40,282 bases of DNA from Zetaproteobacteria bacterium (GTDB lineage Bacteria; Pseudomonadota; Zetaproteobacteria; Mariprofundales; Mariprofundaceae), in the NCBI GenBank assembly GCA_002746295.2, contig NVWS02000027.1, forward strand, positions 1 to 40,282, in the 5' to 3' direction. Position numbers and translations under genes: made by a program. The stretch's first letter is position 1; the number at the start of each line of letters is the position of its first letter. The notes below the pieces were generated by a model. The model had not been told where the DNA came from. It ran no database searches and worked only from the letters and a program-made list of their open reading frames with translations. This document shows, piece after piece, positions 3,762-38,796 of this stretch.

Positions 3762-4931
3762 TTACACCCCTAAAGCCGCTTTAAGCGCATCCACTTTATT
3801 CGTTTTTTCCCATGTAAATTCAGGAAGTTCGCGCCCAAAATGCCCATAAGCAGCCGTTTTTGTATAAATAGGGCGCAATAAATCAAGTTCTTGCACAATA
3901 CCTTTGGGGCGCAAATCAAACACTTTACGCACTGCATCGGCAAGTTTGGCTTCATCGACGTTGCCTGTGCCAAAGGTATTGACCATGACGCTGAGTGGGT
4001 GGGCTACGCCAATGGCATACGCCACCTGCACTTCACAACGGTCTGCCAAACCCGCAGCAACAATGTTTTTCGCCACATAACGCATCATATAACATGCTGA
4101 ACGATCGACTTTGGTGGGATCTTTACCTGAAAATGCGCCGCCACCATGATGACCAAAACCACCATAGGTATCCACAATAATCTTACGACCTGTCACACCA
4201 CAATCGCCCACAGGTCCGCCAATCACAAAACGCCCAGTTGGGTTAATATGATATTCTGTTTTATCGTGTAACAACCCTGTTTTATCCAACACAGGATGAA
4301 TAATTTCTTTCATGATACCAGCCACTAAATCATCATGACTAATATCGGCTGAATGCTGTGAGGATAATACGACGGCATCAATGGCAACGGGTTTAAAGTC
4401 TTCATAACGAACGGTGACTTGTGATTTTGCATCAGGGCGCAAATATTTTAATCGTCCACTTTTACGAACTTCCGCTTGTTTTTCCATCAATTGATGCGAT
4501 AAATAAACAGGCATTGGCATCAATACATCCGTTTCATTGGATGCATAACCAAACATCAAACCTTGATCCCCTGCCCCTTGATCCAAATCAATGCCTTCGC
4601 CTTCATTCACGCCTTGGGCAATATCCACCGATTGTTTATCCATGGTGACCAACACCGCACAGGATGCATAATCAAAACCCATTTCAGAAGAGTTATAACC
4701 AATGTCTTTGATGGTATTGCGTGCAATGGCTTGATAATCAATGGTGGCAGAGGTGGTAATTTCGCCCGATAAAACCACCATGCCTGTATTGACCATGGTT
4801 TCACATGCCACACGCGCTGTTGGGTCTTGTTTTAAAATCGCATCCAAAATACTGTCTGAAATTTGATCCGCCACCTTATCAGGATGACCTTCACCCACCG
4901 ATTCCGATGTAAATACAAAGTTACCACTCAT
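3762..4931 (-). CDS. metK: S-adenosylmethionine synthetase
   Basis: MetK makes SAM from methionine and ATP in the cytoplasm. The protein has 389 residues, the usual length. It begins with [20 protein letters not shown], and the ATP and metal-binding signatures [12 protein letters not shown] and [17 protein letters not shown] follow. The start at 4931 is chosen over the upstream ATG at 4946 because GAGGAG lies seven bases before it and [11 protein letters not shown] matches the family start. The gene is transcribed alone. Nearly all of the gap upstream to the previous gene is a repeat element (4951-5177), so the promoter lies in or is displaced by that element. I see no SAM riboswitch. Confidence 0.97.
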
Positions 4932-36560: not shown

Positions 36561-37757
36561 TTACATCAAGAATTCGAAGTCAAGTTTAGTTGTCTTGGTA
36601 GTCACTGCGCCAGCCTTATCTGCTCCATAAGTCAAAGCAATCACGCCATTTTGATACATTTCATATTCAGCACCCACCAAAATTTTATCAGTTTTGGCTG
36701 CACCAGTTTTATCTTGACCCATACCAGCTAAGAAAACCATGTTATGCGTAGGTTTGATCGTTGCACGAAGTGAATAACCTGTACGTGAGCTTACAGTGCT
36801 TGCGTTATAAACATTCGCTGTGGCCAAGGTTCCAGCACTTGCACTTGCATAATCGGCATATACACCATATTGCATGTCAGCAGCTTCGCCTTGAATTTGG
36901 AAGTCAACACCGTAACGTTTCGCATCTTGTTTTGTGCCAATAGCAGCAATTTGATTTTGTCCAGAAACAACGATTGCGCCAGCACCAATTTCCATATCAC
37001 CCACATCAAAGAAACTTTGTACACGAACCATCGGCGCAAGCTTCCATGAAGCACCAACACCAGCACTTGGATCAACCAAGCCCAATGTCACAGCAACTGT
37101 ATCATTGGCAACCCAAGCTGAAACACCCGCCGTACCTTGAGCCATAGCCATAGAACCATTGATAGATAGAGCGCCGCCACCCATCAAGCCAGCATGTTGA
37201 CCCCAAACACTCATCAACTGAAGACCAGCATCTTCACCAAAACCAGTATTGTAGAAGTTTGCGCCGACTTTTAAATCACCCATGTCCCAAGAGTTCATCA
37301 ACTGAACGTTACCAAAACCACCAGCACCACCAGGAGCCGCTGCAGTACCAGCACCACCACCAAAGCTTACTTCAGCAAAAGCACCTGTATGTTCGCCCAC
37401 ACGACCTGCAATCATCAACACTTGGTCAGCAGTTGCATTAATAGCGTTTGTTGTCACGCCTGCTACTGATGTTTTCACAAATTGCGGACGAATCATTGCA
37501 GTGATGTTCAATTGTGCTGGGATGCCCAATTCATCATCTTCAATCAAGGCTTGGTCGCCCATATCTGTGAATGAACCTTTCTTAAAAGCACGACCGAAAG
37601 CGTTCAAGGTTGGAAATGATTGGAAATGGCAGCTCAAGCAAGCCGCGCCAGTTTGACGTGCGAATGCTGGAATCGCTTCAGAAGTGGTGGGTGCGATAGC
37701 GACAGCAGAAACAGCAACAGTGGCGAATGCAGCAGCAGAAAGAAGAGTCTTCTTCAT
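36561..37757 (-). CDS. cyc2: Cyc2-type outer-membrane cytochrome-porin, probable Fe(II) oxidase
   Basis: The protein has 398 residues. The signal peptide covers about 1-28 (cleavage after TSEA). It is followed by PAFARQTGAACLSCHFQSFP with one haem c site (CLSCH, residues 40-44), then TLNAFGRAFKKGSF, the pattern known for Cyc2. Residues about 75-398 alternate polar and apolar strands rich in Gly, Ala and aromatic residues, as in a beta-barrel. In iron-oxidising bacteria Cyc2 takes electrons from Fe(II) at the cell surface. The start at 37757 is chosen because the signal peptide begins there and AGGA lies nine bases upstream; the longer frame runs through operator sequence. The gene is single, with its own operators and strong terminator. 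Confidence 0.88.
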   Translation of the reverse strand: MKKTLLSAAAFATVAVSAVAIAPTTSEAIPAFARQTGAACLSCHFQSFPTLNAFGRAFKKGSFTDMGDQALIEDDELGIPAQLNITAMIRPQFVKTSVAGVTTNAINATADQVLMIAGRVGEHTGAFAEVSFGGGAGTAAAPGGAGGFGNVQLMNSWDMGDLKVGANFYNTGFGEDAGLQLMSVWGQHAGLMGGGALSINGSMAMAQGTAGVSAWVANDTVAVTLGLVDPSAGVGASWKLAPMVRVQSFFDVGDMEIGAGAIVVSGQNQIAAIGTKQDAKRYGVDFQIQGEAADMQYGVYADYASASAGTLATANVYNASTVSSRTGYSLRATIKPTHNMVFLAGMGQDKTGAAKTDKILVGAEYEMYQNGVIALTYGADKAGAVTTKTTKLDFEFLM

Positions 37758-37777
37758 AGTGTGTAATCCTCGTTTAA

Positions 37778-37783
37778 AGAATA
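37778..37783 (-). promoter_or_regulatory. Candidate -10 box of cyc2
   Basis: TATTCT on the minus strand (four of six consensus matches) about 20 bases before the cyc2 ATG. A start site near 37771 would place the centre of the CRP-type palindrome at about -40, close to the -41.5 of class II activation. No good -35 box is seen, which fits an activator-dependent promoter. Confidence 0.4.
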
Positions 37784-37802
37784 ATTTTTTCTCAAATCGG
37801 TG

Positions 37803-37818
37803 TGTGATAAAGCTCACA
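37803..37818. promoter_or_regulatory. CRP-type operator upstream of cyc2
   Basis: TGTGA-N6-TCACA, a perfect match to both half-sites of the CRP consensus, 45 bases before the cyc2 start codon. A CRP/FNR-family regulator is likely to bind; which one is not known from the window. Confidence 0.6.
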
Positions 37819-37851
37819 TACCTGAGAGATGGGCGGACTGTGGCAATGAAT

Positions 37852-37865
37852 TTGATATGCGTCAA
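37852..37865. promoter_or_regulatory. FNR-like dyad upstream of cyc2
   Basis: TTGAT-N4-GTCAA matches the FNR/Anr box (TTGAT-N4-ATCAA) in nine of ten half-site positions. It lies about 100 bases before the cyc2 start. Confidence 0.45.
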
Positions 37866-37868
37866 TTT

Positions 37869-37888
37869 TGATACAGTGATGTGTATCA
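37869..37888. promoter_or_regulatory. Third dyad upstream of cyc2
   Basis: TGATACA-N6-TGTATCA is a perfect seven-base inverted repeat with the six-base spacing of CRP-family sites. It lies four bases from the FNR-like dyad. Confidence 0.45.
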
Positions 37889-37931
37889 TTTTGTCACACA
37901 CACCAACATTGGAAGAAGCCTTGCCCATTCC

Positions 37932-37991
37932 TCATTCCAGAGCGCTTGTATCTGGAATCTAAGACCATCGATAAAAGCACTCGAGGGTGAC
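37932..37991. repeat. Two-hairpin repeat upstream of cyc2
   Basis: ATTCCAGA/TCTGGAAT is a perfect stem that differs from the usual ATTCCCGA/TCGGGAAT by a compensated change. The second stem ACCATCGA/TCGAGGGT has one mismatch. Ends in GGTGACG; a GGGGGTGACG follows a little further on. Lies between the cyc2 operators and the tRNA promoter. Confidence 0.6.
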
Positions 37992-38034
37992 GGGGGAGGC
38001 GTTTGCATTCGGGGGTGACGGTAGGATGACAGTC

Positions 38035-38091: not shown

Positions 38092-38168
38092 GCACCCTTA
38101 GCTCAGCTGGATAGAGTGCTGCCCTCCGAAGGCAGATGTCAGTGGTTCGAATCCACTAGGGTGCACCA
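38092..38168 (+). tRNA. tRNA-Arg (anticodon CCG)
   Basis: 77 bases with CCA encoded. The acceptor stem GCACCCT/AGGGTGC, anticodon stem CTGCC/GGCAG with loop CTCCGAA (anticodon CCG, codon CGG), and T arm AGTGG-TTCGAAT-CCACT are all paired. Phage-like small genes follow directly, as at many tRNA-Arg integration sites. Confidence 0.96.
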
Positions 38169-38661: not shown

Positions 38662-38796
38662 TATAGTGATTCAAGTATTAAATCACCACGTCATTCCCGA
38701 ATTTTTTTATCAGGAATCTTAATGATAGACCCTCGATACAAGCACTCGAGAGTGACGACTGGGGTGATAGAAATAGCAGTTCTATACTTGAATGAC
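38662..38796. mobile_element. MITE-like element, best-preserved copy
   Basis: Terminal inverted repeats ATAGTGATTCAAGTAT (left) and ATACTTGAATGAC (right). Between them lie TTAAATCACC, the two hairpins (ATTCCCGA.../...AGGAAT and ACCCTCGA/TCGAGAGT, each with a mismatch), and GGGTGATAGAAATAGCAG. About 135 bases, no coding capacity. Same order of parts, on the opposite strand, as the 4951-5177 copy. Confidence 0.75.

Follow-up and report, generated by a model that had tools for sequence, protein, structure and literature searches.

A conserved tandem operator and promoter upstream of cyc2 in the Mariprofundaceae, with a predicted structured leader RNA

The DNA analyzed here, a stretch of 40,282 nucleotides referred to as the window, belongs to a Mariprofundaceae genome of 2.09 Mb (G000), the nearest named relative of which is the MAG GS19_ROV16. 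On its minus strand, which also carries all cyc2 elements described below, an ORF at 36561..37757 encodes a fused cytochrome-porin of 398 aa starting with MKKTLL at position 37757. Cyc2 is defined by the motifs AXPXFAR[QK][TY], CXXCH, and PXL (PMC8406198). All three were found in the ORF (AIPAFARQT-GAA-CLSCH-FQSF-PTL), followed by a C-terminus of porin length; by its sequence motifs the protein belongs to Cyc2 (Cluster 1), a probable iron oxidase. Searches with Cyc2 against Pfam and NCBIfam models gave no match, and a sequence search against solved structures found nothing; orthologues exist in most of 74 family genomes. The ribosome-binding region ACGAGGATT is located at 37765..37773, and an AGGA or GAGG equivalent is found in the other leaders. 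The gene is a marker of neutrophilic iron oxidation. One study (PMC7029218), which asks for tests of cyc2 regulation, reports it as often the top-expressed gene in marine iron mats and as rising 3.6-6.5x upon addition of Fe(II). A strong, regulated promoter would suit this behavior. A published promoter or operator of neutrophilic cyc2 was not found in the literature searched, most subscription journals lying outside its scope, in line with the first-pass annotation, which knew of no described operator.

Three dyads had been noticed upstream of cyc2, and all of them are present. A perfect CRP-type dyad, TGTGAGCTTTATCACA (TGTGA-N6-TCACA, exact match), occupies 37803..37818; an FNR-like dyad, TTGACGCATATCAA, which reads TTGAT-N4-GTCAA on the plus strand, 37852..37865; and a third dyad, TGATACACATCACTGTATCA (TGATACA-N6-TGTATCA), 37869..37888. 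With at most one mismatch, TGTGA-N6-TCACA was observed three times in the window versus 1.95 times expected, hence it is not enriched there. Genome-wide pattern searches gave six exact sites, five of them intergenic, and the reversed pattern occurred once; the CRP-type motif therefore does look used. The FNR-like dyad deviates at one position. Counting dyads of its kind with at most one mismatch, the window holds 14 (e.g. 4578-4591), where 4.3 were expected and no shuffle reached 14.

Upstream regions from about 55 loci, with 52 cyc2 orthologues of 13 Mariprofundaceae genera as the comparison set, share a block in which two dyads of 17 bp each, TGTGNCA-N3-TGACACA and a weaker copy of it, are joined to a sigma70-like promoter, TTGAC-N17-CAnnGT-TTCGC. 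In the orthologues the order is TGTGNCAAAATGACACA, a gap of 6-8 bp, and TGTGTCATGTTGACCC. Operator unit 1 of the window, TGTGACAAAATGATACA, extends over 37882..37898 with a predicted centre at about -60 and lies 16-17 bp from TTGAC; its positions G2, T3, A15, C16, and A17 are invariant in 51 aligned orthologues. Unit 2, TGTATCAAAATTGACGC, at 37859..37875 has a predicted centre at about -37 and overlaps the -35 box; the tandem copy occurs in most genera, and its left half is missing in Ghiorsea-type genomes (genus g5). The -35 box TTGACG is located at 37860..37865 (TTGA in 51/51 orthologues, C in 49/51). A spacer of 17 bp separates it from the -10 box CACAGT at 37837..37842, which is followed by CCGCC in the window and by TTCGCC in relatives. 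Of the 51 aligned -10 hexamers, 39 have A at position 2 and 41 have T at position 6, with TTCGC thereafter. The promoter looks sigma70-like in its near-invariant TTGAC, its spacer, and the conserved A2 and T6, and less so in the window's own CACAGT, a weak -10 box which matches TATAAT at only 3/6 positions and was missed by a consensus scan. From this conserved promoter, the transcription start is predicted near 37830.

Two of the three dyads are accounted for by this block. The FNR-like dyad holds the -35 box, and its ATCAA half is not kept even in the relative G014; the third dyad is composed of the right arm of unit 1 and the left arm of unit 2. Units 1 and 2 are 17-bp dyads with an odd centre and hence neither CRP sites (16 bp, even-spaced) nor FNR sites (14 bp), so that the earlier assignment of both upstream dyads to the CRP/FNR type does not hold. 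Comparison across relatives thus retains these two dyads as pieces of a conserved element; the perfect dyad is not found at its place beyond G012 and G014. Only G012 has an exact copy, its upstream region being nearly identical to that of the window throughout; in G014 the dyad has two mismatches (TGCAA-N6-TCACA).

The specificity of the block was determined with a score combining the half-sites of unit 1 with TTGAC at a fixed distance (threshold at least 14 of 17). This threshold was reached by 52 of 53 orthologues and by 7 of 2120 dinucleotide shuffles, and by none of eight cyc2 paralogues of the same genomes or 28 homologues from outside the Zetaproteobacteria. The sole orthologue below threshold, L044, comes from G007, which has two cyc2 copies in tandem, and is the first of them. 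A search of 78 class genomes with a composite pattern (unit 1, 15-18 bp, TTGAC) gave 18 places, and none for the reversed control: 16 places are at mapped cyc2 starts, one is elsewhere (G044:C1:1183778), and one is in G008, where the same operator sequence lies 150 bases from a contig end and cyc2 itself is not seen. By these pattern searches the operator-promoter block is nearly confined to cyc2. The orthologues are related, so that genome counts overstate the independent evidence and 13 genera is the safer number. Two neighboring cyc2 copies are found in G007:C314 and G071:C23; both copies in G071 have the operator and the leader RNA, and the first copy in G007 has kept the leader RNA without the operator.

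The first-pass annotation had read the perfect dyad as a class-II site from which a CRP/FNR-family activator, centred near -40, would drive a promoter with TATTCT (within 37776-37784) as its -10 box. The perfection of the dyad speaks for such a site, as do the intergenic location of five of the six exact copies and the CRP/FNR homologues of the genome, a listing of which yielded three HTH_Crp_2 proteins, one with a CRP-type pocket. However, TATTCT is not conserved beyond the clade, a transcript from the start it implies would begin right at the ribosome-binding site, and the dyad itself is restricted to one near-identical sister and degenerate in G014. Furthermore, the family-conserved TTGAC...CAnnGT promoter lies upstream of the dyad, which spans the predicted positions +13 to +28 of the leader. 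Its centre at about +20 relative to the start predicted from that promoter contrasts with the -41.5, -61.5, or further upstream positions compatible with activation. An activating role is unlikely for a dyad in this place, and we consider the class-II reading as a whole very improbable.

CRP-type dyads were also found in relatives, within the spacer between the -35 and -10 boxes of cyc2 in six other genera (g2, g3, g6, g8, g11, and g12). They begin 7 or 11 bases past the first base of TTGAC, which puts their centre at about -20 (g6: about -16) relative to the predicted start. L039, L092, L094, and L089 carry a perfect dyad; ten further loci deviate at one position and seven at two. When up to one mismatch is allowed, the dyad occurred in 14 of 52 orthologues versus 0.2 expected from shuffles, and with up to two in 21 versus 1.6. 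Of the 74 family genomes, 62 encode a CRP-like protein with a cyclic-nucleotide-type pocket (the copy of the window's genome, G000:C30, has the recognition helix RETISR and the pocket FGEMSLLDRQPRSA); no match to it was found in G012, which carries the site and is 96% complete. Of the proposed CRP/FNR-family control, the involvement of such a protein finds partial support in relatives and the placement for activation does not.

A site between the -35 and -10 boxes in general blocks RNA polymerase. The spacer position at about -20 is thus of the repressor type, and any genuine CRP control would more probably be negative; the window's own CRP-type site, centred at about +20, is also within repressor reach. 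As judged from these positions, a CRP-family regulator may act at cyc2 as a repressor. The spacer site is absent from the window's genus (g1) and from g4, g5, g7, g9, g13, and g14, which means that such control is not universal. The likeness to CRP systems lies in the TGTGA-N6-TCACA dyads, in the spacer or at about +20, and in the CRP-like protein of most genomes; unlike there, the cyc2 dyads are not located at -41.5 or -61.5, and their place is not conserved across the family.

Apart from cyc2, perfect intergenic CRP-type dyads of the window's genome occur at G000:C66:10580, C92:12607, C108:10335, and C123:8955. The genes following them encode a porin-like protein, a probable dicarboxylate symporter, an exported protein, and a PstS-like phosphate-binding protein, and the four dyads possibly mark a CRP regulon. 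Conservation of the pstS site in G014 was considered and dropped; the copy in G014 adjoins a cytochrome-b-like gene.

The transcripts predicted from the conserved promoter have leaders of about 75-190 nt. The cyc2 leaders fold better than shuffled sequences (mean z of -1.85, n = 50) as compared to -0.20 for upstream control segments; 3 of 8 paralogue leaders also had low z values. A stem-loop of 6 bp just 5' of the ribosome-binding site covaries: among 15 distinct sequences, in a test whose input was hairpins of one size only, 100% of the cells were paired and three pairs had changed on both sides. On four of five measures none of 500 shuffles was as good, and on the fifth two of 500 were. Eleven long leaders have in common a GCAGGUCGAAGA element in a four-helix arrangement in which 15 of 22 pairs have changed on both sides, for a structure drawn from the same eleven sequences that were tested; slid controls gave at most 9 pairs. 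A covariance model of the long leaders matched, throughout the class, only cyc2 leaders of that type, and it misses the short leaders, among them the window's own. In an Rfam search only tRNA reached the gathering score, and no family matched the leaders. The GCAGGUCGAAGA module of the long leaders is thus a candidate for a new structured leader RNA. The conserved GCAGGUCGAAGA bulge within covarying helices was seen in L025, L034, L038, L088, L095, L097, L098, L101, L103, L110, L119, and L121.

Highly expressed mRNAs such as that of ompA also have stem-loops in their 5' leaders. The cyc2 leaders resemble them in that the mRNA of an abundant outer-membrane protein forms a stem-loop immediately 5' of its ribosome-binding site; they differ in that the long ones add the conserved GCAGGUCGAAGA bulge module, and in that Rfam gave no match.

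The window's own leader is short and lacks the stem-loop before the ribosome-binding site. Its main stem is formed by the CRP-type dyad, contained in the stem-loop GGTATGTGAGCTTTATCACACACC at 37799..37822 (RNA fold of -8.2 kcal/mol). The minimum-energy folds computed for G000 and G012 contain a possible closing helix spanning 37790..37827, in which TCTCA (37823-37827) pairs with TGAGA (37790-37794). A corresponding 5' helix was found in 38 of 48 leaders versus 26.9 +/- 3.4 for shuffles, which is only moderately above expectation; as a feature common to all leaders, it was set aside at these values.

The dyad at 37803-37818 could be a leader hairpin stem and nothing else, used by no DNA-binding protein. 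It lies within the predicted transcript, the whole leader folds about 3 standard deviations better than shuffles (z of -3.1), and the leader stem-loops of relatives keep their pairing while their sequence changes. On the other hand, the pairing in G014 (7 of 9 pairs; one gained, two lost) has survived no better than the CRP letters have, so that G014 speaks neither for nor against an RNA stem. Compared with the covarying hairpin that relatives have before the ribosome-binding site, the window's hairpin is also more distant from the start codon, by about 15 nt. Moreover, CRP-type dyads recur at the cyc2 promoters of six genera. Taken together, we regard a stem without any protein as a serious alternative, yet the less probable one; the dyad would rather double as CRP-type site and leader stem.

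Which protein might read the tandem operator was approached by a loose search with a single unit in 14 genomes. Besides cyc2, it pointed to the region before a histidine kinase/response regulator pair related to ActS/PrrB/RegB and ActR/PrrA/RegA (best NCBIfam matches, below the curated cut-offs); the RegA-type response regulator has a Fis-type HTH. A near-perfect dyad, TGYGRCA-N3-TGYCRCA, is located by regB in 29 of 30 family loci, mostly before the gene (G000:C31, L064:2985-3001; L131-L160). The dyad suggests autoregulation and, for Zetaproteobacteria, a RegA motif that can be put to use. Across the RegA-type site of the window's genome, regB faces a divergent gene for a TonB-dependent receptor.

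RegA binds the regulatory region of the rus operon of Acidithiobacillus ferrooxidans, for which no binding motif was definable (PMC5506826), and cyc2 of the Mariprofundaceae might likewise be a RegB/RegA target with the tandem dyads as RegA sites. The 17-bp geometry of the dyads by regB is identical to that of the cyc2 units, and the window's genome encodes the RegBA pair. Operator forms cited for RegR/PrrA/RegA (GNGRCRTTNNGNCGC; YSCGGC(5)GWCRMA; PMC5506826) share half-site spacing and outer letters with the cyc2 dyads. However, RegA is present in only 33 of 74 genomes, and the cyc2 operator persists in nine high-completeness genomes that lack RegA. At position 13, all 29 regB sites have Y and 46 of 52 cyc2 sites have A; likewise, position 15 is mostly G in the RegA-type sites of the same genomes and A in the cyc2 dyads. 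RegA was therefore rejected as the cyc2 regulator, the persistence of the operator in RegA-less genomes and the mismatch at position 13 leaving it quite a poor prospect. The A. ferrooxidans system is similar in that a cyc2-type iron oxidase gene has regulator sites upstream of the -35 box; it differs in that the Mariprofundaceae operator is sharply defined, departs from the local RegA-type motif, and persists without RegA.

Fis-type regulators in general bind dyads of such length with TG...CA ends. Both features of the cyc2 dyads would suit an NtrC-like or PilR-like response regulator with a Fis-type HTH, a kind of protein that every one of these genomes encodes. All HTH_8 proteins of the RegA-less genomes examined have the length of enhancer-binding proteins (about 440-520 aa), and one NtrC-like group occurred in 9 of 9 genomes examined. 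Against this, the promoter is sigma70-like and not sigma54-like, and none of these proteins is directly tied to cyc2. Binding by such a regulator is unlikely on balance, and the NtrC-like group is a lead only.

The observed conservation and spacing of the block, its near-exclusive link to cyc2, and the RNA covariation in relatives form the frame of a model in which we infer the regulators and the direction of control. The region would be a dedicated cyc2 promoter of the Mariprofundaceae. A dimeric helix-turn-helix regulator is proposed to occupy the two adjacent 17-bp dyads at about -60 and -37, adjoining and overlying the -35 box of a sigma70 promoter with a weak -10 box; from its position, it would most likely activate transcription, although unit 2 covers the -35 box and the operator could thus equally bind a repressor. 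In many lineages, a CRP-family protein would modulate the promoter from a site overlapping it (the -35/-10 spacer of six genera) or closely following it (about +20 in the window's lineage), with an effect that its position makes most likely negative. The transcript would carry a leader of about 75-190 nt with stem-loops before the ribosome-binding site, and in the window's lineage the CRP-type dyad would serve as leader stem as well. We assign the model as a whole, i.e. a cyc2 promoter with tandem operator, CRP modulation, and structured leader, a probability of roughly 0.7. A bolder version appears doubtful to us: that a dedicated, previously undescribed regulator sensing Fe(II) or redox state runs cyc2 via the tandem operator, with a new class of leader RNA (GUCGA-bulge module and stem-loop before the ribosome-binding site) as a second layer of control. 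With operator, promoter, and leader defined and conserved over 13 genera, the sensing of Fe(II) or oxygen in iron oxidizers becomes directly testable.

Additionally, a 31-nt repeat occurs twice in the window, at 37962-37992 and 38727-38757 (AGACC.TCGATA.AAGCACTCGAG.GTGACG), with 90% identity between the copies. The copies flank a tRNA-Arg(ccg) gene (38092-38168) and two small ORFs, and the element looks like a dispersed repeat.
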